Counted from the stretch's first letter, positions 2,151-46,290 are shown. The stretch is 64,000 nucleotides of DNA from Bacteroidota bacterium (GCA_947507965.1 CANNQU010000003.1:1-64000); one strand, 5' to 3'. Numbers and translations are program-made. The notes: generated by a model from the letters alone, not told the origin.

Positions 2151-4190
2151 ATGAAAAAATATTTTATACTATTTCTTGTTTTAGGTGTTCTAACGGTGCT
2201 CACTTCCTGTGGTTCAGAAAGAACCCAAGAGGCCGTTAAAAAACGCAATTACATTGATTCGGCAAACTTCGATTTCAATGTAAAACCATCAGAAAACTTT
2301 TATTCGTATGCCAATGGTTCTTGGTTAAAGAATAATCCAATACCACCAAGCGAAAGCCGCTGGGGTAGCTTCAGTGAGATCCAAGAGTTTAACTACAAAG
2401 CGCTACATGATTTACTTGATGAGTATTCGGGTAAGCAAAATAAAGAAGGTACGATAGAGCAGAAAGTGGCCGACTTTTATAAAAGTGGAATGGATAGCAC
2501 TCTATTGGAAAGTCGGGGCTACCAAGATATCATTCCGGATATGGAACGTATCCATGCGATTAAATCCACGGATGACCTAATTAATGAATTGTGCCTGCAA
2601 CAGTTGGAAGGGAGTAACCCATTAATAGGATTCTATGCCGATCAGGATGCGAAAAACAGTACACAGATCGCAGCCCAGTTATGGCAGGCAGGCATCGGTA
2701 TGCCGAATAGAGATTATTATTTTAAAGACGACGACCGGACAAAAAAAATACGCGAGGCGTATAAAAAATATTTTGTAACACTTTTTAATTTAATTGGCGA
2801 GAAAGATGCCGAGGGTAAATACGCTGCTGTATATGCCTTAGAAAAGAAATTGGCCGGAGCATGCAAATCGCCTGTTGAGTTGCGTGATCCTGAGGCCAAT
2901 TATAATAAAATTTCAATTGTCGATTTGAACAAGCAAACGATCAATTTAAATTGGACGGCCATCCTGAATAATTTCAAAGTGCCTGCGCAAGATTCAATCA
3001 TTGTTGGACAACCTAAATATTATTTAGAGGTGAGTAAACAAATCAAAGGCACGAACTTGGCTGATTGGAAAACCTATTTGATATGGCACACTTTAAAAGG
3101 GTCGGCACCGTATATGAGCGAAGCCTTTATAGCGGCGAACTTTGAATACAGTGGTAAAGCGTTAAGTGGTCAGAAGGAGATGAAACCACGATGGAAACGA
3201 GTATTACAAGCCGTTGATGGTGGTTTGGGCGAAGCTTTAGGAGAATTGTATGTAAACAAATATTTTAATAAGGAAGCGAAAACAAGCATGCTCGGATTGG
3301 TGAAGAACCTTCAAGAAACCTTTGGTGAGCATATTACAGCATTGGAATGGATGAGTAACCCAACCAAAGAGAAGGCATTAAAAAAACTCAATGGCTTTAT
3401 GTTGAAGATTGGCTATCCAGATAAGTGGCGTGATTACAGCAGTGTAAAGATCGTACCGAATTCTTACAGTTTAAATTTACGTGCGATCGGCAAATTTGAA
3501 TACCAGCGTATGATCGCTAAGATAGGAAAGCCTATCGACAAAACCGAATGGGGCATGAGTCCTCCAACCGTTAATGCCTATTACAACCCAGGCTTTAATG
3601 AGATTGTATTTCCTGCCGGAATATTGCATTTCCCATTCTTTGAATTTGATGCGGATGATGCCATAAACTATGGTGGTATTGGTGCGGTAATCGGTCATGA
3701 AATGACACATGGTTTCGATGATCAGGGAAGTCAGTATGATGCCGATGGAAATTTGAAAACGTGGTGGACGGATGAAGATCGCAAAAAGTTTGATGCCTTA
3801 ACACAGCAAGTAGTGAAACAATATGATCAATATACCATCTTAGATTCCATGCACATTAACGGGAGTTTAACACAAGGCGAAAATATTGCCGATTTAGGAG
3901 GTGTTAGTATCGCCTATGCTGCATTCAAGAAAACGGCACAAGGAAAAGCTACAGATAAGATTCTTGGATTTACTCCGGATCAACGATTTTTTCTCTCCTG
4001 GGGGCAAATATGGCGTAATAACATAACCGATGAAGCAGCCGCATTGCGTATCAATACCGACCCACATTCGCCAGGTATGTACCGTTGTAATGGGCCATTA
4101 ACGAACTTCACCCCTTTTTATAATGCCTTTGGAATTAAGGAAGGCGATGCGATGTGGAAACCAGAAAACGAAAGACTGAAAATTTGGTAA
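2151..4190 (+). CDS. pepO: M13 family zinc metallopeptidase (neprilysin/PepO-like), lipoprotein
   Basis: HEMTHGFDDQGSQYD zinc motif, GENIADLGG, C-terminal W; start moved to ATG 2151 (MKKYFILFLVLGVLTVLTSCGS lipobox) from ORF start 2067. Confidence 0.93.
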   Translation: MKKYFILFLVLGVLTVLTSCGSERTQEAVKKRNYIDSANFDFNVKPSENFYSYANGSWLKNNPIPPSESRWGSFSEIQEFNYKALHDLLDEYSGKQNKEGTIEQKVADFYKSGMDSTLLESRGYQDIIPDMERIHAIKSTDDLINELCLQQLEGSNPLIGFYADQDAKNSTQIAAQLWQAGIGMPNRDYYFKDDDRTKKIREAYKKYFVTLFNLIGEKDAEGKYAAVYALEKKLAGACKSPVELRDPEANYNKISIVDLNKQTINLNWTAILNNFKVPAQDSIIVGQPKYYLEVSKQIKGTNLADWKTYLIWHTLKGSAPYMSEAFIAANFEYSGKALSGQKEMKPRWKRVLQAVDGGLGEALGELYVNKYFNKEAKTSMLGLVKNLQETFGEHITALEWMSNPTKEKALKKLNGFMLKIGYPDKWRDYSSVKIVPNSYSLNLRAIGKFEYQRMIAKIGKPIDKTEWGMSPPTVNAYYNPGFNEIVFPAGILHFPFFEFDADDAINYGGIGAVIGHEMTHGFDDQGSQYDADGNLKTWWTDEDRKKFDALTQQVVKQYDQYTILDSMHINGSLTQGENIADLGGVSIAYAAFKKTAQGKATDKILGFTPDQRFFLSWGQIWRNNITDEAAALRINTDPHSPGMYRCNGPLTNFTPFYNAFGIKEGDAMWKPENERLKIW

Positions 4191-32412: not shown

Positions 32413-33060
32413 ATGAAGATTAAGGCATGTATTTTTGATTTGGATGGCGTTATTGTGGACACGGCGAAGTTTCATTTTAAAGCGTGGAAGCAATTGGCTG
32501 ATGAACTCCAGATTCCTTTTAATGAACATGATAATGAGCAACTCAAAGGGGTAAGTCGCACTACCTCATTGGAGATTATTCTACAAAAAGGCACAAAAAA
32601 ATATAGCGATGACGAGAAGTTATTGATGGCGAAGAAAAAAAACGAATGCTATCTGGAGTATTGTGCCACGATTGATGCGGGAGATATCTTGCCCGGAATA
32701 AAATTATTCCTTGACGAATTAAAAGAAAAAAAAATCCTCGTAGGCTTGGGTAGTGCAAGTAAAAATGCGCTACTTATTCTTAACAAATTAAACCTCACAA
32801 GTTACTTCGATGCCATCGTTGATGGCAATAAAATAACGGAAGCGAAACCAAATCCTCAGGTTTTTTTAAAAGCGGCTGAAGAGTTAAATGTACTGCCTCA
32901 TGAAGCGGTTGTTATTGAAGATGCTGAAGCCGGCGTGGAAGCTGCCGTGAAGGGTGGATTTTTTTCAATAGGAATTGGCGATCCGAAGATTCTTGCCAAA
33001 GCAAACGTTGTTTTCTCATCAACAGCGTACTTAAACCTGGTTGTTTTAAACCGGTTATAG
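32413..33060 (+). CDS. pgmB: Beta-phosphoglucomutase (HAD superfamily)
   Basis: CIFDLDGVIVDTAKFHFKAWKQLA, LKGVSRTTSLEIIL, GLGSASKNA, AKPNPQVFLKAAEEL, VVIEDAEAGVEAA. Confidence 0.92.
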   Translation: MKIKACIFDLDGVIVDTAKFHFKAWKQLADELQIPFNEHDNEQLKGVSRTTSLEIILQKGTKKYSDDEKLLMAKKKNECYLEYCATIDAGDILPGIKLFLDELKEKKILVGLGSASKNALLILNKLNLTSYFDAIVDGNKITEAKPNPQVFLKAAEELNVLPHEAVVIEDAEAGVEAAVKGGFFSIGIGDPKILAKANVVFSSTAYLNLVVLNRL

Positions 33061-33086: not shown

Positions 33087-33515
33087 TTATTTTTTCTTCA
33101 CGAAAATAGTTTCTCTGGTGTAGTCAACACCACTATTTGGAGCGGATATCCAGGTCCATTTCTCGCCACCAATAATTCGTTCACGGGTGTATGGTTTTCC
33201 GTCGATGAGCAGCCTATCGCCCTCGTGTTCATCTATTTCCCATTTCCCCTCTGTATCTGATTTTAAACCCGAGAAGGATGTGAAATTAACTTCAAACTGA
33301 GCTAAATCATAACCTTCAACGAGGGTCTTACTTAGGGCAAACCAACCCAGTGTATCGTTCTTAAGGGTAGAGTCGAGCAATTGTATTGCCTCTTCATACT
33401 TTACCTGTTCAACTTTTTGTATCACCCATACACCAGAAAATTGAAACGGCCCATTGCGTTTTCTACATGAAGTGGTAATGGAAAGTAAAAGAAGAATAGA
33501 GATAAATAATTTCAT
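33087..33515 (-). CDS. Module protein C, copy 1: small lipoprotein
   Basis: Lipobox ITTSCRKRN; shares GGEKWTWI..NSG..YTRETI.VK.K, KVEQV.Y, ND..GWFA, SGLK.D with 35058..35486. Confidence 0.8.
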   Translation of the reverse strand: MKLFISILLLLSITTSCRKRNGPFQFSGVWVIQKVEQVKYEEAIQLLDSTLKNDTLGWFALSKTLVEGYDLAQFEVNFTSFSGLKSDTEGKWEIDEHEGDRLLIDGKPYTRERIIGGEKWTWISAPNSGVDYTRETIFVKKK

Positions 33516-33532
33516 GGTCTTTTCCTATTTAA

Positions 33533-34294
33533 TTATAAGCTGTAAAGTTTGTAGGCCACCCCCAAATCGATAAATATGGATTGAAAACGGCTTTGAACGT
33601 AGTTTCCTTTATAATAAGGCCAACCACCCGTTGCCTGATAGGATACTAAGTCTTCCGGCAATCGTTGGTCGTAAACTTGATCATTAAAGTCTATACCACC
33701 AAAAATAGGGCACCATCGGAGGGCAGCTGTTAAGCCGATCGGTCCTTTTAATCGATATATTTTGCCGCCGATACAACTTGCTAAGGTAAAGGCATTATAG
33801 ATGCTATTTAATTTTGCATCGGTACCAATGCTTCGATAGCCGTCTCTATAGTTCATCTCTGCAATAATATTGGCATTGGCTACATAGATGCCAAAGAATA
33901 ACCCACCACCACCGTTCTTGGTGATGGTGCCATAACCAAAATCCATCCCAATCGTATTTTGTTTTAATTTGAATTCACGGGTCGTATAGGTGTTGATTTT
34001 GGATGATGAGGTGGCCGAAACATGATGCTGATAGTATCCCATCATAATGCCCATACCGTAGATGACATCGCATCCAAAAGAATATCCCATGGTGGCACCA
34101 AAATTTCGAAGCTTGGTTTCATTGTTTGGGTTTTGAAGGTTATAAGAGGTAACCAATTTTTGAAATGATGTGCCTCTTGTATAGCCTACTTTTGCATCGA
34201 TATGAGAGGCAATTAATAGGGTTGTTTTAGAGGAACTTTGCGCGAACAATTCGAGGGTAAGGAAGAGTAAAAACAGAGGAAATAATTTTTTCAT
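33533..34294 (-). CDS. Module protein B, copy 1: secreted, outer-membrane-barrel-like
   Basis: Signal peptide; MGYYQH, YTREF.L, YRDGY.SIG.D..LN.IY, RWCP, LPEDL shared with 35494..36264. Confidence 0.8.
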   Translation of the reverse strand: MKKLFPLFLLFLTLELFAQSSSKTTLLIASHIDAKVGYTRGTSFQKLVTSYNLQNPNNETKLRNFGATMGYSFGCDVIYGMGIMMGYYQHHVSATSSSKINTYTTREFKLKQNTIGMDFGYGTITKNGGGGLFFGIYVANANIIAEMNYRDGYRSIGTDAKLNSIYNAFTLASCIGGKIYRLKGPIGLTAALRWCPIFGGIDFNDQVYDQRLPEDLVSYQATGGWPYYKGNYVQSRFQSIFIDLGVAYKLYSL

Positions 34295-34309
34295 GTGATT
34301 CGAGTTTAT

Positions 34310-34960
34310 TTAGGATTTTGCTTTTTTCAAATTCAGTAATAAAGCTACCGTCAAATTGGATGGTTTTAACCTGTCGTTAAACCAAAATCGAACATCACCA
34401 AACCCCGTATGATAGGAAGTTTTTAGCGTCAGTTTTTCAGTTAGATGTCTTTCAATATGAATATCGAACATAAAAAAGGTAAGAGGAGGGAAGAGCATTA
34501 TGGGTTTCCCAAAGGCATCGCCCCAATCGGTATTATTGTAATTTTCAACGGTAGCATTTTTGTGTTTAACATTAAAATAGGTGGCATCCATTCCGCCACC
34601 GAACCCCCATTTTTTGTATTTATAACCGGCACAAAATACGAGTGCATTCATCTTTGGTTTGAACGATTCTTTATATTGTACGCCATTCTCGGAATATTCT
34701 GAGGTATAAATATTATGCCGATTATTCCAAGAAGCCTCCACCCAACCCTTTTCAAAATCAATCCTATATCCTAGATAGAGGCCGTGAAAGAGCGAATTAT
34801 AGTTAAAGTCGGCATGGTACTTTTTTTCTAAAACGAAGGTCTTGCTTTGAACATTACCCAAGCCAGGAACCCATATTCCTCCTTGATATCCGATAATAAA
34901 GCCTGCTTTGGTGGTAAAGCAAAAGAAAACAATAAAACAAAGGCTGGTAATTCGTTTCAT
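34310..34960 (-). CDS. Module protein A, copy 1: secreted, outer-membrane-barrel-like
   Basis: Start ATG 34960 (MKRITSLCFIVFFCFTTKAGFIIGYQGGIWVP); shares GF.IGYQGGI.VP, YHA.F.YN..F.G..LGYRI, N..T.AFLLN with 36280..36939. Confidence 0.8.
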   Translation of the reverse strand: MKRITSLCFIVFFCFTTKAGFIIGYQGGIWVPGLGNVQSKTFVLEKKYHADFNYNSLFHGLYLGYRIDFEKGWVEASWNNRHNIYTSEYSENGVQYKESFKPKMNALVFCAGYKYKKWGFGGGMDATYFNVKHKNATVENYNNTDWGDAFGKPIMLFPPLTFFMFDIHIERHLTEKLTLKTSYHTGFGDVRFWFNDRLKPSNLTVALLLNLKKAKS

Positions 34961-34986
34961 CTTTGGTTTTATGAGGGTGGGTTTTA

Positions 34987-35016
34987 CAAAGTTATAGAAT
35001 GCGAACAAACCACCAA
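34987..35016 (-). promoter_or_regulatory. Bacteroidetes sigma-ABfr-type promoter for module copy 1
   Basis: Reverse strand TTG (35016-35014) - 19 nt - TAACTTTG (34994-34987), 26 nt before ATG 34960. Confidence 0.75.
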
Positions 35017-35057
35017 ATTAAAAGCAAAAAAAATGCTGGAATATATTGCTATGAAAT

Positions 35058-35486
35058 TTATTTTCGCTTTACATAAATGGTTTCTCTTGTATACGATGCT
35101 CCGCTATTTGATTCCGTGATCCAAGTCCATTTTTCTCCGCCTGAAATACGGGTACGGGTAAAAAACTGATCATTAATTTCTAGTCTGTCCCCATTATTTT
35201 CATCAATCGCCCAAAAGGTATAGAAATCGGTTTTGAGCCCAGAGATAGAAACGAAATTAATTTTTATTTTGCCCTGACCGTTAAATCCGGTTGCATTTTG
35301 AAATGCGAACCAACCAACCGTGTCATTTTCTATTAAGGAATCGAGAGTTTTTTGATCATTGATGTACCTTACTTGTTCTACTTTTTGTATTTCCCATGCA
35401 CCGGCAAAATAAAACTTGTTATTTCTTTTTTTGCACGACACGGCAAGGAAAAAGAGGAAGAAAACCAGGATATATTTTTTCATCAT
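35058..35486 (-). CDS. Module protein C, copy 2: small lipoprotein
   Basis: Lipobox LAVSCKKRN; paralog of 33087..33515. Confidence 0.8.
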   Translation of the reverse strand: MMKKYILVFFLFFLAVSCKKRNNKFYFAGAWEIQKVEQVRYINDQKTLDSLIENDTVGWFAFQNATGFNGQGKIKINFVSISGLKTDFYTFWAIDENNGDRLEINDQFFTRTRISGGEKWTWITESNSGASYTRETIYVKRK

Positions 35487-35493
35487 TGAATAA

Positions 35494-36264
35494 CTATTTA
35501 AAGATTCCGGATAGATTTATTGCGATACCTAAGTCGAAGAAAAAAGATTGGAAACTGGCTTTTACATTTTTCCCTTGATATGAATTGGGTCCACCAGCGA
35601 TACCACTTAAATCTTCCGGTAAATACAGTAGCGCATTTTTGTTATTAGAACCTTTCCCGTAATCGCTCATCTCAATGATGCCCGACATCGGACACCATCT
35701 TACCGATGACGAAATGGCAACAGGACCAATTAATTGAAACGCTTTCACCCCAAGGCTGCCAGAGAAACCGAACCCATGATAAATTCCATTCAATATGCCA
35801 TCGTTTCCAATACTCTTATATCCATCTCGATATTTTATGCCGGAAGTAAGCACGGCACTAGCGTAATACACCCCGAAGAAACCAGCAATACCATTATTAT
35901 CCTGGATAACGCCTCCCCCAAAATCAGCCCCCCAGGATCGCTGTGTGAGGTAAAACTCGCGAGTGTAATATTCGTTTATTTGTGATGCAGCGTAGGCTGA
36001 AATTTTATGTTGATAATATCCCATGAAGATGCCTTCTTTGAACCACCAGTCGGCGTTTATAGCCCATCCGGTGCAGCTACCGAAATTAGGCAGTTTCGAT
36101 TTATTTGTTGGATTGGCATTATTATAGGAAGTGACAAATTTCTCAAAGGAAGACCCTTTTGTTGTTCCAACCTTACCTGAAACGCCAATCATCAAACTCC
36201 CTAACTGGGCATTGGTATTAAGCATAAAGAGGGTGATCCCAAAAAGCAATACGAGTTTCTTCAT
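35494..36264 (-). CDS. Module protein B, copy 2: secreted, outer-membrane-barrel-like
   Basis: Signal peptide MKKLVLLFGITLFMLNTNAQ; paralog of 33533..34294. Confidence 0.8.
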   Translation of the reverse strand: MKKLVLLFGITLFMLNTNAQLGSLMIGVSGKVGTTKGSSFEKFVTSYNNANPTNKSKLPNFGSCTGWAINADWWFKEGIFMGYYQHKISAYAASQINEYYTREFYLTQRSWGADFGGGVIQDNNGIAGFFGVYYASAVLTSGIKYRDGYKSIGNDGILNGIYHGFGFSGSLGVKAFQLIGPVAISSSVRWCPMSGIIEMSDYGKGSNNKNALLYLPEDLSGIAGGPNSYQGKNVKASFQSFFFDLGIAINLSGIFK

Positions 36265-36279
36265 GATTTGTTTTTTAAA

Positions 36280-36939
36280 TTATTTTCCAATATTTAATAA
36301 AAAAGCCAACGTAACATTGTTGGGCTTGAAATCATAAAATGTTTTTATTGCATCATTGGCAAAGGTAATCTCGCCAATTCCAAAATGGTAGGTAGCTCGA
36401 AGGCGAATTAACTTTCCAAAATGTCGTTCAAGGATAAAGCAGAAGCTTGGATTGTTAGGTAATCCGAATATGGTAATGGGCGTGCCATAGTCATACGTCC
36501 ATTTGGTGGCACTAAAGTCTGCTATTTTACCGCGCTTCATCATCACATTTAAGTTCGACATATTAAAACCAGCACCAAGCCCCCAGTTTTCATATATCAC
36601 TCCCGCATCAAAAACAAGTTCATTCATTCGAGTTTTAATGGAGAGTTTATATTTTTCATTTGTTGAGTTAAGGTATTCGGAGGTGAAAATATTTTGTTTT
36701 TTATTCCAAGCTAAGCTTATCCAATAGGCATCGTCTTCTATTCGATATCCCAAAAAGATACCTTTAAAAAAATTATTATAATGGAAGTTTGCATGATAAA
36801 CTTGGTTATAATAATACATGGTAGATTGGGTGTTTGCTATTGATGGAACATATATTCCTCCCTGATATCCAATAACAAAACCAGCTTTAGAAGAGATGCA
36901 AAAGAAGGTGATAAGACCCAGGGTAAAAAGTAGTTTCAT
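36280..36939 (-). CDS. Module protein A, copy 2: secreted, outer-membrane-barrel-like
   Basis: Signal peptide MKLLFTLGLITFFCISSKA; paralog of 34310..34960. Confidence 0.8.
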   Translation of the reverse strand: MKLLFTLGLITFFCISSKAGFVIGYQGGIYVPSIANTQSTMYYYNQVYHANFHYNNFFKGIFLGYRIEDDAYWISLAWNKKQNIFTSEYLNSTNEKYKLSIKTRMNELVFDAGVIYENWGLGAGFNMSNLNVMMKRGKIADFSATKWTYDYGTPITIFGLPNNPSFCFILERHFGKLIRLRATYHFGIGEITFANDAIKTFYDFKPNNVTLAFLLNIGK

Positions 36940-36966
36940 CTTTTAGCAGGAATGATTAGCTAAGAG

Positions 36967-36996
36967 CAAAGTTAATGCTTATAGCGGTACTTCCAA
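36967..36996 (-). promoter_or_regulatory. Bacteroidetes sigma-ABfr-type promoter for module copy 2
   Basis: Reverse strand TTG (36996-36994) - 19 nt - TAACTTTG (36974-36967), 27 nt before ATG 36939. Confidence 0.78.
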
Positions 36997-37005
36997 CCCC
37001 GTGTT

Positions 37006-38565
37006 TTAGGGCATTTCGTAGGCTACCATCACACTTCCAAAAGCCGGAATGAAAAGTTGATATGCCTGCAAACGCGAAATATGGTTTAGTGAAATGATTT
37101 TTTCAATTCCATTTTTTGTAGATAAGAGGCTTAGGTCTATTCCCGATTCCAAATTTTTTAAATTATGGATGATAAGATATTTTTTGTTGCCAATTTCTCT
37201 TCCATACATTAGAAATCCGTCCTTATGTATGAGTGAAAGGGTTAGCATACCATTGGCTAGTACCTCATCACTATTGCGTAAATGAATTAAATTTTTATAT
37301 ACATGGTAAATAGAATTTGTGTCGGCTATTTGTTCAGAAAGTCGTGCCGTTGTTTTGTTATGATAATTGGGCTCCCAGGTACTATTTGCTTCGTCGTTGG
37401 TTTGCCACAAAAAAGGTTCACGAATGTGTTCGTCGGGTTTTGGGCCATACATTCCTAATTCATCGCCATAATATAAATAAGGGGTGTAGGGCAGGGTAAA
37501 TAAAATGGCAGCAGCTTGCTTTGCTTTGTCTATATTGCCTTCCACCTCATCCATGATACGGGGATTATCATGGTTTGAAAGAATGAGGGCATCGCTAAAC
37601 ATTGGATTATGACGGTCGTAATTTTTATAGGCCTCCAGAAGTTTGGTGGTCATTAAATCTTTTTCTTCTTTGAGAGAAGCCTTAATATTAAACCAACAAT
37701 CGAAATTGAATCCTGCATTTAATCCCGCCTTAAGGTAAGGTGCAATTAAGGTGTCGCCTCCCCACATTTCTCCTACGATATAAAAATCAGGTTTTACTTT
37801 TCGTAGAGTTGTTGAGAACTGTTTCCACCACTCATAGTTTTTATTCCTTTCGGCGTAAGGATAAATATGGCTTGCCGCATCGAGCCGGTAGCCATCAATA
37901 TTACATTCCTTAATCCAGTAAATGGCCGACTCAATGATTTGAGAACGAACGATGTTGTTATCATAATTTAAATCAGGCATCCCTCTCCAGAAATAGCCAT
38001 AATACTTTTCCGATCCTTTAGCATGGTCGTCGAGCCAATGCCAGTGTTCGGGTTCTTTGTTCCAAAGGGTACGATCACTACTCCAGTAGTAATAGTTTTT
38101 ATAGGCAGCATTTCCTTTTGCTGACTCTTTAAACCATTCATGTTCAGAACTTGTGTGATTGGCTACAAAATCCAAGATGATCTTAATGTTAACCTTGTGT
38201 GCTTCTTCAACGAGCTGTTTTAACTCGGCCAAAGTGCCACATTCAGGATCAATTGCATAATAGTTCGTAATATCATATTTATGATACGTTGGTGATTCAA
38301 AAATAGGAGTGAGCCATATGGCTCCAATTCCTAAATCTTTCAAATACGGAAGTTTCTTTCGAATACCATTTAAATCGCCTTTACCATCGCCATTACCATC
38401 GGCAAACGACCGAGTGAAAACCTGATAAACCACCTGATTGGGAAACGTCGCATGAAGCCATTTTTCTGATGACGTTTGATTCTTATTTTCCAATTTTTGC
38501 GACATCATGATTTTCAATGGCAATACCATTATAAGCGTAATAAATACAGTATAATAGGTTCTCAT
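37006..38565 (-). CDS. GH13 family alpha-amylase
   Basis: VVYQVFTRSFADGNGDGKGDLNGI, DFVANHTS, GYRLDAASH, IVGEMWGG, LSNHDNPR; start ATG 38565 preferred (MRTYYTVFITLIMVLPL) over 38730. Confidence 0.93.
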   Translation of the reverse strand: MRTYYTVFITLIMVLPLKIMMSQKLENKNQTSSEKWLHATFPNQVVYQVFTRSFADGNGDGKGDLNGIRKKLPYLKDLGIGAIWLTPIFESPTYHKYDITNYYAIDPECGTLAELKQLVEEAHKVNIKIILDFVANHTSSEHEWFKESAKGNAAYKNYYYWSSDRTLWNKEPEHWHWLDDHAKGSEKYYGYFWRGMPDLNYDNNIVRSQIIESAIYWIKECNIDGYRLDAASHIYPYAERNKNYEWWKQFSTTLRKVKPDFYIVGEMWGGDTLIAPYLKAGLNAGFNFDCWFNIKASLKEEKDLMTTKLLEAYKNYDRHNPMFSDALILSNHDNPRIMDEVEGNIDKAKQAAAILFTLPYTPYLYYGDELGMYGPKPDEHIREPFLWQTNDEANSTWEPNYHNKTTARLSEQIADTNSIYHVYKNLIHLRNSDEVLANGMLTLSLIHKDGFLMYGREIGNKKYLIIHNLKNLESGIDLSLLSTKNGIEKIISLNHISRLQAYQLFIPAFGSVMVAYEMP

Positions 38566-38622
38566 ATCGAGTGTGAAGTTAAAATAAATATCCAACCTCG
38601 ACGAACGGGTTTGCAGAATAAC

Positions 38623-38660
38623 AAAAAAAAGTCTTCCTGCATTGCAGAAAGACTTTTTTA
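38623..38660 (-). terminator. Intrinsic terminator downstream of T9SS starch-binding-like gene
   Basis: AAAAAAAAGTCTTCCTGCA/TTGCAGAAAGACTTTTTT near-palindrome. Confidence 0.85.
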
Positions 38661-38677
38661 ATAGATGATTTATCGAA

Positions 38678-40375
38678 TTACTTAATACTAAGTTTCTCGG
38701 TAGCACGGGTATTGTTACCCATAATGTCAACGATATAAATCCCGGTTGGCAAGTCGCCTTTCGTGATGGTTAATTTACCTGTAATATCCGTGTAAGAACG
38801 TACCAGTTTACCAGTAACGTCGATGATATTTACGGAGTACGAACCAGTACCTAATTCAATAGAGGTGGTGTTGGTCATTGGATTTGGAAACATACGGAAA
38901 CTTTCATTTCTGCCATTATAGCTAATAGCTGAGATGCCTTTCGTGCATTTACCAAATACATAATAAATGGTTGATGCTCCTGCAGGACGAGCATAAACGC
39001 GTTGGTAACCGATACCTGAAGGTGATAAACAAGTTCTTCCCGCAGCAGCAGTATCATACACTTCGTCGGCAGCGTCATTAGCAAAATTGTAGTAGATGGT
39101 TCCAGGGCAAATAGAGTCGATAGAAACTTGATATGCTTTACCACCGGTATTCGGTACTGCTGCCATTTCTATTTTACCTCCTGTTGCTCCTTTAAGCCAT
39201 GAATTACTTCCTCTGCCTACCAAGTATATTTTAGTTCCTGGAGTAATTGTAGTTCCTGCGAAATCAACTTTAAACGTAACTTTCGAAGATGCCGGCGGAG
39301 CTGTACATGTGGTATTTTTACCAAAGCAATTCACAGGCAAGGTAGAAGTAGCTACAATATTTAAGGCACGATTACCACTTGAAATCCATCCGATTTGTTC
39401 CCAACTTACCACACCTTTACTCCAAACGCGATATTTGTAATCGATAGATGTACCGCTATCAAATGCATTTATGGTTAGGCTATAAACGCTGGTAGCACCA
39501 ACTTTTGCCATTTTTTGTCCTGGATTACCCCAGTTGCCTAACAAAGCGTGTCCACCGGTTACATCTACTGAGTCAATGGTTCCACAAGCAATTTCTTCTG
39601 CAATATCGGTGTTAAAGGTTACATTGTATTTTGGAAGGTTTAATACACAATTTGCACATTCGCTGAAACATATTGGAGTTAAAACGAGAGCTGAAGTAGT
39701 TACGGCTAATACACGGTTACCACCAGAAGGTGCGCAGCTTCCCGGTACACTTTCCCAACCACCTGTGCCATTTTTGAATTTGTATTCGTAGTTGCCTGCT
39801 GAAAGCCACATTTGACCTTCATAAACTTTACCGCTTGCATCTAAATTTAGCAATTGCGATTTATCACTCCAGCCATTGAAAGCACCGGCTGCCAAAACTC
39901 CTGCAGGATCAATGCTGGCTGCTTTTGCCATATTTACACGTACACGAACATATTGTTTGTTGTATCCGAATGACGAGAAAGCTGCTGAAGACAGACCTTG
40001 CCAAGAAACTAAAATAGTATCTTTCGATTTAGTGGTATCCACGGTAAACCAACGATTTCCGTTTCCTCCGCCTACCTGAGCGTCTGTTGGAACATTTTCT
40101 GCATTTCCGGCAGCTGAATTCCAGTCGGTGCCATTAATGAATTTGTACTCCACTTTCCCCGGGGTGGTGGTGGTGAATGAATAATAGTAAACTTGTGTTG
40201 TAGGGATATTTGCTAATGCTGTTGTTGATGGGCTCCACGACTGGAAACTACCGGCAATATGCATTCCATTGGCATGAACAGTTTGTCCGGTCATATCAAC
40301 TGCAAATAAAATTGTTGTGGCATTTGCAAGGTTTAGAAATGCAATAGCACTTAATAAAAGTAAAAAACGTTTCAT
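38678..40375 (-). CDS. Secreted protein with about four tandem starch-binding-like (CBM20/48-type) Ig-fold modules and T9SS type A sorting domain
   Basis: Repeated pattern (YKF.NG..W...GGNR...V; GAFNGWSDKS; GNWGNPGQKM); C-term FRMFPNPMTNTTSIELGTGSYSVNIIDVTGKLVRSY...LPTGIYIVDI. Confidence 0.85.
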   Translation of the reverse strand: MKRFLLLLSAIAFLNLANATTILFAVDMTGQTVHANGMHIAGSFQSWSPSTTALANIPTTQVYYYSFTTTTPGKVEYKFINGTDWNSAAGNAENVPTDAQVGGGNGNRWFTVDTTKSKDTILVSWQGLSSAAFSSFGYNKQYVRVRVNMAKAASIDPAGVLAAGAFNGWSDKSQLLNLDASGKVYEGQMWLSAGNYEYKFKNGTGGWESVPGSCAPSGGNRVLAVTTSALVLTPICFSECANCVLNLPKYNVTFNTDIAEEIACGTIDSVDVTGGHALLGNWGNPGQKMAKVGATSVYSLTINAFDSGTSIDYKYRVWSKGVVSWEQIGWISSGNRALNIVATSTLPVNCFGKNTTCTAPPASSKVTFKVDFAGTTITPGTKIYLVGRGSNSWLKGATGGKIEMAAVPNTGGKAYQVSIDSICPGTIYYNFANDAADEVYDTAAAGRTCLSPSGIGYQRVYARPAGASTIYYVFGKCTKGISAISYNGRNESFRMFPNPMTNTTSIELGTGSYSVNIIDVTGKLVRSYTDITGKLTITKGDLPTGIYIVDIMGNNTRATEKLSIK

Positions 40376-40418
40376 ATAGATTGAAAATTAAAAATTTAAG
40401 TGGTAAATATACAAATAA

Positions 40419-41279
40419 TTATTTGCATTCAAAATATTTCGGATCATTATTTCCTACACTTCTATCAATTCCGCCATTATAGTTTTGGCGTCGAACGATA
40501 AATTGGGCCGAAACAATGGTTTTCCCAGAGGGCACTCCAAAGAACTCTCGAGGAATCATGGTAAGCTTAAACTGCCCTGAAAATTGTCCTTCCGTAATTT
40601 TTGTCATCTTTAAACCCGGCACGGTTCCAACATCAAAAAAGCCTGCTTTTTCTAAAAAAGTAGTATCACTGAGGGTTATTTTAGCATATAGATAACAGTC
40701 GTTGGCATCAAGATTTCGCATGGCTACGTTACGTTCTACCGGGTTATTATACATTACGGTTACAATTTCATCGGTAAAGGCGCACTTGGGTAGAGTATAA
40801 ATCGTATCCCTTTCAATAGGTGCTAATACTTTAATATTTAAGTCTTCGGTTTTTAGGTCGGGGGCACCATATCCGCCACCATCTTTAGGTTTTACCAAGA
40901 AGGAGATTCCTTTGGCGTAAACATCGCCTTGCGAAACACCATAAAAATCGGTAGGAATCATCTCGTAATAGTAAACCTTGGGTCCTTTCGTAGGGTCGGC
41001 GGTTAATTTTAAATTGTCGTTCGAGTTTTTCCAGGGCTGTGTGCCGGTACCATTCACATTGGCGTCGTTGGCCGGCAGCTCCCGTGGATTCCAAGTCCAC
41101 ATATAAAATGGACCGGTGAGACCGGCCAACGATGGATTGGTTACTTTCGATAAATCGACATAGATTCGGCAAACCGATCGAACATCGGTGGTTGGCCCAG
41201 GTTCAATCCAAGCAGCTTGGGCATTGGTATTAATAATTGCAATGATGCAAAGTGAAATAAACAGAATAAACTTTTTCAT
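40419..41279 (-). CDS. Secreted protein of SusC/D locus with two related domains
   Basis: Signal peptide; repeated MIP..F.GV..G......F.V; located between SusD and T9SS starch-binding-like gene. Confidence 0.75.
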   Translation of the reverse strand: MKKFILFISLCIIAIINTNAQAAWIEPGPTTDVRSVCRIYVDLSKVTNPSLAGLTGPFYMWTWNPRELPANDANVNGTGTQPWKNSNDNLKLTADPTKGPKVYYYEMIPTDFYGVSQGDVYAKGISFLVKPKDGGGYGAPDLKTEDLNIKVLAPIERDTIYTLPKCAFTDEIVTVMYNNPVERNVAMRNLDANDCYLYAKITLSDTTFLEKAGFFDVGTVPGLKMTKITEGQFSGQFKLTMIPREFFGVPSGKTIVSAQFIVRRQNYNGGIDRSVGNNDPKYFECK

Positions 41280-41305
41280 CTTCTTAACTTTCTAAATTTT
41301 AATAA

Positions 41306-41800
41306 TTACAATCGTACAAACTCCCATATATAAGAGTAGGCTATATTTTTAACTCCCTTTTTGAAATAATAGAATGACTTTTTCAATTTCAAGCTAGCAT
41401 CCGTAGGTCTGATGGTGCTTCCTAAAAGGAAGGTGTCTTTTACATTATTGGAATAATTGATTCGAATAGAAGTAGGATAACTATTATTATCAAAACTCCA
41501 GGTTCCACTGCCTGTTCCAAAATAGTTTTTCACGGTTCCGCTCGTCACGGCCGTAAAGTTAGTTTCTGTAAACGTAATGGTTGGCAGGGTTTTGGTTTTA
41601 TAGAAATCAGTGATGTCCAGCTTATCAGGAGAGGTAGCTGCCTCATCAATAACATAAGCATGACTCAAAATCCAAGTTGCCTGAAGCCCTTGCATTTTGC
41701 TGGGTTCATTGCCAATATCGTTGAACTTCTTTGGACGGCACGAAAATGTACTAATGGATAATAGTAAAAAGAAGACAGAAAATTTTAAGATACGTTTCAT
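41306..41800 (-). CDS. Small lipoprotein, lipocalin-like
   Basis: FSCRPKKF lipobox; GTGSGTWSFDNNSYPTSIRI; directly downstream of susD. Confidence 0.7.
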   Translation of the reverse strand: MKRILKFSVFFLLLSISTFSCRPKKFNDIGNEPSKMQGLQATWILSHAYVIDEAATSPDKLDITDFYKTKTLPTITFTETNFTAVTSGTVKNYFGTGSGTWSFDNNSYPTSIRINYSNNVKDTFLLGSTIRPTDASLKLKKSFYYFKKGVKNIAYSYIWEFVRL

Positions 41801-41812
41801 GATATTTTTTAA

Positions 41813-43198
41813 TTAATTGCAACCCCCTTCAGGGTTCATTTGAAATCCTTTAATAGTACTTTCTGATGCAGGAAATTGTAAGGTTAATCCGTTACAGTTC
41901 CACGGGGCGTTTCGAATACGAACATTAAGTTCACCTTTTGCACCCATGCGTTTGAGCTGTTGTACACGATCGCCTTCCATTGACATCTCTAGGCGTCGTT
42001 CCATGCGAGCCGCCACTTTTATTGTTTCGGCGCCACTGCCGAAGGATATGTTTTGTGAGATTCCACCAAAAGCTCTAGATAGAATTGAATTAACGTCGGT
42101 GATAGCAACCGATAGGTTAGTGTTTGTTTCTGCTAATGCTTCGGCTCGCATAAGTAACATATCGGTTAGGTAAAGAACAGGGATGTTAAAGTAATTCGAA
42201 TCAAATTTTAAAGAACGAAACCCCCCTACGCAAGGTGCATAGTAAACGCTTCGCTTGTCCCCTGTTCTTGATGTGGCTTCGGCATACAGGTTGGCAGAAA
42301 CGCCAATCTGAGGTTGATTTGAACCGACATCATGGTAGTTTCCACGGATATCACCCGATTTTTGATCATTGTTTGCCGACTTAATATAGAAGATCATTTC
42401 TTTTTTGGCACCTACCGAGTTGTCGTAAATATTGACACTATCGGCGAGCCCAAATTTACCTGAGTTTACAATGTCATTCACTTGTGTAATTACCCCGGCA
42501 AAATTATTCATCTGGAAATATACTTTAGCCAATAAGGCTTTGGCTGCGTATTTCGTTGCATTGGTATTATTCAAATTGATTTCAGCTAAATCAGGAATAG
42601 CTTCTGTTAAATCTTTGATTATGAAATCATAGGATTCTTTACAGGTACTTCTCTTGGTTACTTCGGGAAGTGAATTTTTGCGTAATGGAACACCTAAATG
42701 CGAATTGTCGGTGGTAAAGCCGTAAGGTTGAGCAAAATATCGAACAGCTGTAAAATGACCCAGTGCTCTCATGAATTTTGCTTCGGCGATCATGCGTGCT
42801 TTTTCCGAAGCAGTAAAATCAGGAACAATATCAATAAAATCTAAAACCGTATTCGCCTTGTAAATTATTTTATACATATCGCCATAAAAACCACCAATAG
42901 AAGTGTTAAAAAAGATGGTTGCTCGATTATATACCTCATTATAATCGTTGTTCGATTTGGGTGCAATTACGTTGTCGGATAATAACTCGCCATAATATTG
43001 CACCCTTCCGTTAAACAAGTTAGAAATATTGTCGTAGCCGGCATTGAGTACTTCTTGTACATCCGATGGTTTTTTCAAAGCATCAGCTTTTCTAACTTGT
43101 GTGGGGTCGTTTGGATCGACATCAAACATTTTTTTACAGCTAAAGAAAGCCGTAAGCAGTAAAAAAGAGCCTATTAAATATAGTGTGTTACGTTTCAT
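41813..43198 (-). CDS. susD-like: RagB/SusD family nutrient uptake outer membrane lipoprotein
   Basis: AFFSCKKMFDVDPNDPTQ, FMRALGHFTAVRYFAQPYG, AKALLAKVYFQM, LLMRAEALAE. Confidence 0.94.
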   Translation of the reverse strand: MKRNTLYLIGSFLLLTAFFSCKKMFDVDPNDPTQVRKADALKKPSDVQEVLNAGYDNISNLFNGRVQYYGELLSDNVIAPKSNNDYNEVYNRATIFFNTSIGGFYGDMYKIIYKANTVLDFIDIVPDFTASEKARMIAEAKFMRALGHFTAVRYFAQPYGFTTDNSHLGVPLRKNSLPEVTKRSTCKESYDFIIKDLTEAIPDLAEINLNNTNATKYAAKALLAKVYFQMNNFAGVITQVNDIVNSGKFGLADSVNIYDNSVGAKKEMIFYIKSANNDQKSGDIRGNYHDVGSNQPQIGVSANLYAEATSRTGDKRSVYYAPCVGGFRSLKFDSNYFNIPVLYLTDMLLMRAEALAETNTNLSVAITDVNSILSRAFGGISQNISFGSGAETIKVAARMERRLEMSMEGDRVQQLKRMGAKGELNVRIRNAPWNCNGLTLQFPASESTIKGFQMNPEGGCN

Positions 43199-43212
43199 GT
43201 GGTAATAATTAA

Positions 43213-46200
43213 TTAGAAGCCAATTACAATGGAAATACTATTGGTTCGCTCTTGTGGGGGGGTTAAATAAGTAATATTTGGGCTGGTGTTTCGGTCGGTG
43301 GCATTTTCAAAATCGCGCACTACTTCCGGGTCAAGACCTCTAAATTTGGTGAACAAGAATACATTAGTTGATACGAATCCAATTCTTGCTGACGCCAGTT
43401 TTGCTTTCTTCAATTGTTTTTCAGTTAACGAATAGTATAAACTCAAACTACGTAAACGCATATAAGAGGCATCTTTTAGCCATAGGTCGGTATTTATCCA
43501 AGGCGTTGCCGAACCATAAGTTGCTTTATCTTGTGTAAGAATAGGATAGGCGGCATTATCGCCGGGTTTTTGCCAACGGTCGAACTGGTCTTGCGTATGA
43601 TTCCAATTATCGGAGTCGTAGGTTCCAAGTTGACGCTTAGAGGAAGAGTCATAAATTTTACCACCAATACTATAAACAAAATTGACATCCAACTCCCAGT
43701 GGTTGTAAATTAAGGTGTTGCTCCACCCTCCATATGCTTTCGGGTAAATATTGCCTACTGGAACTCTATTGGCAGGGTCCCATTTATAGGTTTCATTTCC
43801 CTGCTTATCAAAATAAATGGGTTTGCCATTGGTTGGGTCAATTCTTGAAAATCGAACCAGGTAATTGGTACCCACTGGTTGTCCTTCCACTATTCGCGTA
43901 TCATTGGTTCCCCCACTCACCGCTTCCTCTGTATAAGATCCAATATCCAAAACTTTATTATAATTGCGAGCGATATTAAAGTCGATGGTGAACCTTAATT
44001 TGTTGCCATCAACAACGCGAAGCTTCGTGGCAAATTCGATACCTTGATTGTTTATTTTCCCTACGTTGGCTGCATAGTTTCCCGATTGGAAACCATAATA
44101 ATTAGGAACACTCACGCTTAAGATTACATCTTTCGTGTTTTTGTTGTAATATTCCAATACCCCGGTAATGCGCTCAGAAAAGAGCGAAAAATCGAAGCCA
44201 ATATCAAAGGTGGTCGTCGTCTCCCAATGGAAATCAGGATTCTCATATATTTCAACATAACGAGAAGGAACTCCATTATAAACGTTAGGGTTTACTTTGT
44301 ACCGACCCCACCATGGATACGACCCTCCAAAATTTGAGTTCCCCGACTTTCCAAAACTAGCACGAGCTTTTAAGAAGGTAAGTGTTTTGTTTTCTTTTAA
44401 AAATTTCTCATCGCTTATAATCCAACCTGCACCAATGGCAGGGAAGAAACCCCAACGGTAGTTTTCTCCGAACGTAGAGGAGTAATCGGCACGCCCATTG
44501 AGAGAAATAAAATATTTGTCTTTTAATGAGTAATTCACTCGTCCAAAATAACTATCAAATACCGAAATGCTTTTACTTAAAACGTTGGTTCCTATTTTTA
44601 AGTTAGAGTCGACTGGTGTGGTATTGTATAGTGGGCCTAAAATATTATTATATTCTAAATATTTGAAAGCCGATTTTGTTCTCTGGTATTCACTTCCTAA
44701 TAAATAAGAAAGCTTTTGATCACTTTTCAATGTTTGCGAATAGGAGGCCGTAGCTATAATATTATAGTTGTTTGTGTAGGTAGCACCGCGTTTTGCAATG
44801 CCTTTAGTTTGTTTCACCAAGGCCGTATCTTCATACACATCATCGGTATTATCTAAATAGTCATAGTTGCCATTAAGATGGAAGATCAAATTCTTGATCG
44901 GTGTTATATCTAAAACTAAACCCTGTAATGTTCGCTGTTGTTGTGTTCTCTGCGTTTTATTCTCTCTCATAAATACGGGGTTGTTATTGGGGCCAGCTCC
45001 CGTAAACCATCCACCATCGCTATTTTTTATTGGATATATGGGAAGTGCCGTGCTCATGGCCGCTCCCATTCCTCCTCCCCAGCCCCCATCTACGCGTTTG
45101 TTTATTCCATTAACATAAGAACCTAAATATGAAAGCTTTACATTTTTGGTCAGTTGATAATCTAAGTTGGCTCTGAGTGTCGATCGTAAATAAGCATCAC
45201 CGATAATATAGGTAGAATTATTATCATGGGTAGTATTCACATAGAGGTTTAATTTTTTATTGGCGTATGAGGTTCCTAAGCTATAGGTTTGTTTAAACCC
45301 GATATGGGTAGTTTCTTTAACCCAATCGGTATTCGTAGCCTGTGCCTGATCCCAAGATAAGCCTGCTGGCAATATGGGGTGTCCAACGCCTCCATCATTT
45401 TCAAAAGCCTCCTGCAACATTTGCAAGTACTCTTTATTGTTCATCATTTTTGGGCGCGAGGCCATAGTAGAAATCCCTTCACGAATCGAAAGATCAAATC
45501 GCAAGCCTTTCTTTTTAGCTCTTTTTGTGGTAATAATGATTACACCGTTTGAACCACGGGAACCATAAATAGCTGTTGCTGCGGCATCTTTAAGTATTTC
45601 GATGGATTCAATGTCATCGGGGTTTAGAGTTGCTAATGGGTTATTGTTTTTGCCACCGCCGTTTCCTTTATCGGTTGCATTTTGCATGAAATAATCCTGA
45701 GAAATAGGAATGCCATCCACCACATAAAGTGGGTCGCTACCGGCACTTACCGAAGCGATACCTCTGATTTTTACTACTGCGGCCGCCCCAGCTAGTCCGC
45801 TTCCTATGGATACCTGCACGCCTGCTGCTTTTCCTTGTAATGCGGCCTCTACACTTGGCAAAGGAATGGCGGTTAGTTCTTTGCTTCCAATTTTTGCCAC
45901 TGCACCGGTTACCTCCCTTCGCACCTGTGTGCCGTAACCTACCACGACCACCTCGTTGAGGTTTTTGTTGTCGGTTTGCATCTCGAATTTTATGGTCTTA
46001 ATTTCCCCTGCAGCAAGCTTTACGGCCTGTTTATTCGTTTGATACCCTAAATAGGTGGCTACCATCACATAGTTACCGGCGGCTAAACTTTTAAATTCGA
46101 AATTCCCATCCGCGTCCGTATTTTGGGCGGTGGTTGTTCCGTCGATTCGAACAATAGCAAAAGCCATGGGTTCGCTCTTCTCGTCGAGCATTTTTCCTTT

Positions 46201-46290
46201 TATGGAGGCGGTATTCTGTGCTTTTAATTGCGCTGAAAAAAACAGCAAACAAAACAATACAAAGAAGCGGTGAAGTATTTTTGAATTCAT
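43213..46290 (-). CDS. susC-like: SusC/RagA family TonB-linked outer membrane protein
   Basis: N-terminal carboxypeptidase-like repeat, NEVVVVGYGTQVRREVTGAVAKIGSKEL plug motif, DPLYVVDGIPI, ESIEILKDAAATAIYGSRGSNGVIIITTK. Confidence 0.96.
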   Translation of the reverse strand: MNSKILHRFFVLFCLLFFSAQLKAQNTASIKGKMLDEKSEPMAFAIVRIDGTTTAQNTDADGNFEFKSLAAGNYVMVATYLGYQTNKQAVKLAAGEIKTIKFEMQTDNKNLNEVVVVGYGTQVRREVTGAVAKIGSKELTAIPLPSVEAALQGKAAGVQVSIGSGLAGAAAVVKIRGIASVSAGSDPLYVVDGIPISQDYFMQNATDKGNGGGKNNNPLATLNPDDIESIEILKDAAATAIYGSRGSNGVIIITTKRAKKKGLRFDLSIREGISTMASRPKMMNNKEYLQMLQEAFENDGGVGHPILPAGLSWDQAQATNTDWVKETTHIGFKQTYSLGTSYANKKLNLYVNTTHDNNSTYIIGDAYLRSTLRANLDYQLTKNVKLSYLGSYVNGINKRVDGGWGGGMGAAMSTALPIYPIKNSDGGWFTGAGPNNNPVFMRENKTQRTQQQRTLQGLVLDITPIKNLIFHLNGNYDYLDNTDDVYEDTALVKQTKGIAKRGATYTNNYNIIATASYSQTLKSDQKLSYLLGSEYQRTKSAFKYLEYNNILGPLYNTTPVDSNLKIGTNVLSKSISVFDSYFGRVNYSLKDKYFISLNGRADYSSTFGENYRWGFFPAIGAGWIISDEKFLKENKTLTFLKARASFGKSGNSNFGGSYPWWGRYKVNPNVYNGVPSRYVEIYENPDFHWETTTTFDIGFDFSLFSERITGVLEYYNKNTKDVILSVSVPNYYGFQSGNYAANVGKINNQGIEFATKLRVVDGNKLRFTIDFNIARNYNKVLDIGSYTEEAVSGGTNDTRIVEGQPVGTNYLVRFSRIDPTNGKPIYFDKQGNETYKWDPANRVPVGNIYPKAYGGWSNTLIYNHWELDVNFVYSIGGKIYDSSSKRQLGTYDSDNWNHTQDQFDRWQKPGDNAAYPILTQDKATYGSATPWINTDLWLKDASYMRLRSLSLYYSLTEKQLKKAKLASARIGFVSTNVFLFTKFRGLDPEVVRDFENATDRNTSPNITYLTPPQERTNSISIVIGF

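Follow-up and report, generated by a model that had tools for sequence, protein, structure and literature searches.

SusC is a large TonB-dependent transporter. Complexes of an outer-membrane barrel with a surface lipoprotein are a hallmark of Bacteroidota (PMC12578637), and in the described systems closest to the one reported here, SusCD, BAM with BamG-K and the Bt1926-Bt1927 pair, an outer-membrane barrel and a lipoprotein are encoded or work together (PMC12578637). BamG is a 14-stranded FadL homologue, and a pairing for anchoring or secretion has been proposed for the eight-stranded barrel Bt1926 of B. thetaiotaomicron and the S-layer lipoprotein Bt1927 (PMC12578637). Here we describe a locus in a 64-kb stretch of DNA from a Bacteroidota bacterium (GCA_947507965.1, CANNQU010000003.1:1-64000; hereafter the window), in which six minus-strand open reading frames (ORFs) form two tandem copies of a three-gene unit, A-B-C. 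Compared with SusCD, BAM and Bt1926-Bt1927, the unit is predicted to encode a pair of small barrels together with a small lipoprotein of lipocalin-like type; it has neither a TonB part nor a large surface protein. The explanation that we consider best, and to which we give an even chance of being correct, is that A-B-C is a stand-alone operon for a complex of outer-membrane barrels and a lipocalin-lipoprotein, with which a conserved ligand or partner would be bound at the surface.

Searches of Pfam and NCBIfam gave no match above threshold for A, B or C, no chain was matched in PDB sequence searches with profiles of the three proteins, and the anti-phage defence models of PADLOC returned 0 families for all six window proteins. 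A preliminary description of the window had recognized no family; this holds at the sequence level, and the structure models presented below sharpen it to an OmpA-like eight-stranded barrel for B and a lipocalin-like fold for C. The features of a SusCD-like transporter were not found, as none of the proteins matched such families and B is predicted to have eight strands, nor were those of a Bt1926-Bt1927-type pair, as no large surface lipoprotein lies within the unit or constantly beside it. The kind of system, a barrel-lipoprotein complex, is known; the open-access literature searched contained no paper describing the A-B-C unit or its composition.

Organization and distribution of the A-B-C unit

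All six ORFs were found exactly where the preliminary description had placed them, in the two-copy layout that it had reported. BLASTP comparison of the paralogues showed 41% identity over 220 amino acids (aa) between A1 and A2 (E 3e-61), 45% between B1 and B2 (E 2e-66) and 54% between C1 and C2 (E 3e-47), matches that cannot be due to chance. The intergenic gaps within the units are 7-17 nucleotides (nt). A longer, TTG-started ORF for A2 (34310-35008) would span the putative promoter of unit 2, and its start is the less likely one.

Analysis of genome neighbourhoods showed that A-B-C, in the same order and on the same strand, with genes overlapping or nearly touching, recurs in many families of the Bacteroidia at 14-25% identity. 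In the same genus, G021, G022 and G023 each contain one A-B-C unit in the corresponding place, flanked by the amylase and HAD genes; their congener G020 lacks the unit and has no amylase close by. Family searches found A-B-C in other genera of the family at 14-26% identity.

A class-wide search covered 395 genomes, and independent searches with C and A profiles were added. B was found in 30 of these genomes, belonging to 17 genera. C was located directly downstream from B for 28 of the 37 B matches, A was directly upstream from B for 21 A matches, and the three genes occurred in order in at least 19 places, with further loci coming from the family searches. The B matches without C in G317 and G180 are open frames, shortened near a contig end, and G177 has a further complete unit, which the first B search missed because its B has diverged too far. 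A and B were present together in 22 of the 395 genomes (Fisher p 4e-21, a statistic that ignores kinship). Across the units the median gap was 4.5 nt between A and B and 1.5 nt between B and C, and overlaps were frequent. The homologues are thus neither found only singly nor assigned to unrelated known families, the two outcomes that the preliminary description had named as contrary to its proposal.

Outside the class, within the phylum, B-C pairs without an adjacent A were found in G456, G472 and G546 and, weakly, in G519, which makes B-C the core and A the usual third member. In four genomes of family f4, B-C and an A relative are located at separate places. No relatives were found among viral contigs, phages and plasmids at the sensitivity of a single-protein search. 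The occurrence of B-C without adjacent A and of solitary C and A relatives, like the homology of A to B and the promoter of each unit (see below), adds to what had been described previously.

Other arrangements were also observed. In three genomes of genus g2, C is followed on the same strand by a fourth gene (L006:240-731, L007:2798-3289, L015:465-956) coding for a Cys-containing lipoprotein of 163 aa. In three genomes of another class (L052, L053 and L054, at approximately 2780-3260) a second small lipoprotein follows C, giving the order B-C-C'; it is weakly similar to C (E 0.001-0.07). In family f102 (L058:1459-3060), B-like barrels occur as tandem pairs or singly, without C, flanked by an MFS-like transporter gene on one side and a second conserved gene on the other.

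Inheritance of the block and its putative promoter

Trees of A, B and C, each built for 23 units, have six groupings in common: the second window unit with G021; G220b with G266; G142c with G176; G208 with G177; G033 with G079, G100 and G103; and G220a with G007/G011/G024. G220 and G142 contain two units each, which fall into different groups, likewise for all three genes. Because the trees group alike even in these two-unit genomes, the A-B-C block has been inherited whole. Correlation of mirror-tree distances was strongest for B-C (rho 0.54, p 0.0005), lower for A-B (rho 0.24, p 0.001) and marginal for A-C (rho 0.14, p 0.055), and the weaker values for A indicate that it is the looser member. 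Among close relatives the ratio of nonsynonymous to synonymous substitution (dN/dS) was 0.06-0.25 for all three genes, as expected under purifying selection.

These findings bear on the view that ordinary envelope genes have come together here by chance and share no function. Relatives of C and of A are indeed also found alone, as such a cluster would allow; however, the gene order is kept over very deep divergence, the trees are concordant, and the block has been duplicated and lost intact, so that we regard this view as very improbable. The earlier proposal that the set works as a unit, made from the retention of all three genes in two markedly divergent copies, is well supported by the gene order and the block inheritance, while a joint function is put forward here as a hypothesis.

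The tandem copies do not stem from a recent duplication: synonymous sites between them are saturated, and copy 2 resembles the single unit found in a sister species (approximately 80% aa identity) more than it resembles copy 1. The single unit of G021 is a mosaic: the spacer and first codons are nearer to unit 1 (0.72-0.78 versus 0.45-0.55), and the remainder of A is nearer to unit 2 (0.78 versus 0.55). The simplest reading of these three sequences is that the tandem pair is ancestral and that G021 would have lost one whole unit through an unequal crossover close to the beginning of A, which left one promoter and one full unit.

Between G022 and G023 (L002 and L003), synonymous divergence climbs along the unit, from 0.03 in A to 0.23 in B and 0.60 in C; this gradient is suggestive of recombination along the locus, C being the gene that changes fastest.

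The pattern TTG-N19-TAnnTTTG contains the -7 box consensus of Bacteroides and Flavobacterium, TAnnTTTG (PMC4747536, PMC9723704). It occurs three times in the window (1.78 matches expected by chance), and two of the three occurrences precede A1 and A2, at distances of 57 and 56 nt. In G021, G022 and G023, too, it stands 56-57 nt upstream of A, whereas almost no copy precedes B or C. Scans for sigma-70 promoters and terminators performed no better than on shuffled sequences. Judged by this motif, each window unit is a single operon with its own putative Bacteroidota-type promoter. Further afield the exact pattern is for the most part missing, and the promoter evidence is limited to the genus.

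Predicted structures and possible functions of A, B and C

The AlphaFold2 model of B2 (predicted local distance difference test score, pLDDT, 90.8; predicted template modelling score, pTM, 0.82) has eight strands (residues 26-41, 67-79, 83-99, 105-125, 128-148, 164-183, 186-197 and 237-252), connected by turns of 2-3 residues on one side and by loops of 5-39 residues on the other. The best Foldseek match was OmpA (9fzc, E 4.4e-6, probability 1.00), and Ail, NspA and OmpW were matched as well. B is therefore predicted, with high confidence, to be an OmpA-like eight-stranded barrel. It shares with the OmpA, OmpX-Ail, NspA and OmpW barrels, its best PDB matches, the number of strands and the contrast between a side with short turns and a side with long loops. 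It differs from them in sequence (approximately 10% identity, no match to Pfam OmpA_membrane), from OmpA in having no peptidoglycan-binding domain, and from OmpA-type barrels generally in a conserved helix that forms part of loop 1, the YxDGxxS-LNGxY motif of loop 3, and its encoding as one of an A-B paralogue pair plus a lipoprotein. No B member matched a Pfam outer-membrane protein (OMP) family above threshold.

For A, the best result of the Pfam OMP scan was OmpA_membrane, at E 0.064 and in one member only. Across their first half, the profiles of A and B show homology (hhalign probability 97.9%), and by this A is inferred to be a paralogue of B and likewise an outer-membrane barrel. Both proteins have N-terminal signal peptides by sequence, and the models presented here likewise open with an N-terminal helix. 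The earlier suggestion of secreted outer-membrane barrels is supported in this way, for B by its model and for A by its profile.

The most conserved residues of B (Y51, N52, R106, Y149, D151, G152, S155, N163, P213 and D215) are located in the long loops or at the rims, and the long loops are presumed, from their length, to be extracellular. In most outer-membrane proteins it is these loops that vary. Their conservation here is suggestive of a partner that is itself conserved, as would be expected if the small barrels held a surface layer or adhesin, or served its secretion, with C as assembly factor, in the manner of Bt1926/Bt1927. An eight-stranded barrel with such a proposed role is known in the phylum (PMC12578637), and some B-C or A genes adjoin proteins with tails of the type IX secretion system (T9SS) type. 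Against this stands the finding that flanking genes differ between lineages and include no large secreted protein as a constant neighbour, and we consider such an anchor or secretion partner rather unlikely.

Barrel enzymes of the OmpT, PagP and PagL type were also considered and are disfavoured: the 30 most conserved B positions include no His.

In C, the Cys of the lipobox that had been reported for the window proteins is invariant in 27 of 27 relatives. G28 of a GxW motif is equally invariant, and position 30 is W in 18, Y in 5 and K or R in 4 of them. The AlphaFold2 model of C2 (pLDDT 87.4) shows a short helix (residues 23-26) followed by nine strands, with GxW at the start of the first (28-41). 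The nearest solved folds by Foldseek were sandercyanin, lipocalin 15, crustacyanin and siderocalin, at probabilities of 0.9-1.0. C is predicted to be a lipocalin-like lipoprotein: with lipocalins (including Lipocalin_4 and Lipocalin_8, the 'lipocalin-like' Pfam families of Bacteroidota) it shares the short helix, GxW at the strand start and the nine strands, and its nearest folds are theirs, whereas C has no sequence match above any family threshold and weak Foldseek E values, is lipid-anchored, and in the module is encoded directly after B.

These properties suggest a mechanism in which one promoter before A would drive A, B and C; A and B would be paralogous, OmpA-sized eight-stranded barrels in the outer membrane, their long outward loops carrying the motifs that are most conserved; and C would be lipid-anchored beside them. 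C may dock on the barrels, or may pass a small ligand, probably amphipathic or hydrophobic, to or from them. A-B-C would then be a surface binding and handling unit and not a pore: eight strands leave no wide pore, and TonB parts and conserved His are lacking, findings that count against the set being a general porin, an active transporter or a barrel enzyme of known type. Computation supplied the gene unit, its promoter pattern within the genus, the joint inheritance of the genes, their purifying selection, the fold of B and a lipocalin-like model for C; the contact between the three proteins, the side that C faces and the ligand-handling role are what we infer in addition. The more specific form, a previously undescribed system of several Bacteroidota classes in which the lipid-anchored lipocalin hands a small molecule of amphipathic or hydrophobic character to the barrel pair at the surface, or takes one from it, is possible but doubtful.

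Several findings weigh against a surface-binding complex of barrels and lipocalin. Taken as a class, the B loops are not significantly more conserved than the strands (p 0.66), only particular loop motifs being so, and their presumed sidedness is deduced from their length. The assignment of A as a barrel comes from profile homology. The lipocalin matches of C2 are weak (E 0.03 at best, template modelling score 0.4-0.5), and no C member passed a Pfam lipocalin threshold (best Lipocalin_8, E 0.035, and Lipocalin_4, E 0.039, in one member each). Some lineages have B-C with no A nearby, and A relatives are also solitary. Finally, the signal for export to the surface consists of C-X-K-(D/E)2 or S(D/E)2 after the lipid Cys (PMC5080379), and the window C proteins are basic at this site (CRKRN, CKKRN), without the acidic signal. 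Its strict form is present in only 3 of 27 C relatives; among the rest, many carry some acidic residues downstream of the Cys.

The window C may consequently face the periplasm. An accessory of outer-membrane homeostasis or assembly, in which A-B-C would place or stabilise barrels, lipids or lipoproteins with C binding lipid at the periplasmic face, would agree with this orientation, with a lipocalin-like fold and with purifying selection. General housekeeping is difficult to reconcile with so patchy a distribution (30 of the 395 class genomes have B, and a congener lacks it), and we hold this role to be unlikely.

Genomic setting of the window units

The two units are flanked by an amylase gene on the same strand and by a gene for a HAD-family phosphatase-like protein on the opposite strand, both named from sequence (Table 1). 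The amylase gene belongs to a starch-type polysaccharide locus (37006-46290, same strand as A-B-C). Rfam and tRNA scans of the window gave no match. Elsewhere in the same genome, a lone A relative adjoins a dihydrolipoamide-dehydrogenase-like gene (L133, G000:C75) and a lone C relative adjoins a DEAD-box helicase-like gene (L134, G000:C23).

Table 1. Positions of the A-B-C units, their putative promoters and neighbouring genes in the window
Feature	Position	Strand	Description
Promoter, unit 1	36967..36996	-	TTG-N19-TAACTTTG, 57 nt before A1 start codon (putative)
A1	36280..36939	-	219 aa, secreted, inferred outer-membrane beta-barrel, paralogue of B
B1	35494..36264	-	256 aa, secreted, predicted 8-stranded OmpA-like outer-membrane barrel; model from paralogue B2
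C1	35058..35486	-	142 aa, predicted lipocalin-like lipoprotein, lipobox Cys18, GxW motif as GAW; model from paralogue C2
Promoter, unit 2	34987..35016	-	TTG-N19-TAACTTTG, 56 nt before A2 start codon, within C1-A2 spacer (putative)
A2	34310..34960	-	216 aa, inferred barrel of second copy
B2	33533..34294	-	253 aa, predicted 8-stranded barrel; B protein used for model
C2	33087..33515	-	142 aa, predicted lipocalin-like lipoprotein; C protein used for model
HAD-family phosphatase-like	32413-33060	+	flank of unit 2
Amylase	37006-38730	-	starch-type locus
Carbohydrate-binding protein	38678-40375	-	starch-type locus; T9SS-like tail
Secreted protein		-	starch-type locus; 286 aa
Lipoprotein	41306-41800	-	starch-type locus; weak DUF5004 similarity
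SusD-like	41813-43198	-	starch-type locus
SusC-like	43213-46290	-	starch-type locus

This setting raises the question of whether A-B-C is part of the starch-utilisation locus, with its SusC/SusD-like pair, carbohydrate-binding protein and amylase, and would handle starch products. The unit directly follows the amylase on the same strand both in the window and in the congeners G021, G022 and G023, and G020 has neither a close amylase nor the unit. The promoter pattern that A-B-C has of its own, and the unrelated genes that it adjoins in other genera, argue against such a role, which we judge improbable.

Under the preferred reading, that of a stand-alone operon for a surface-binding complex, the sporadic distribution of A-B-C points to a niche-specific ligand or partner. 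Three 'hypothetical proteins', whose gene order is kept down to less than 20% identity, become one testable operon, for which the predicted folds, the promoter and specific conserved loop residues provide handles. If this reading is true, A-B-C would represent a small, minimal kind of barrel-lipoprotein system, made of two like barrels and a lipocalin-like partner.

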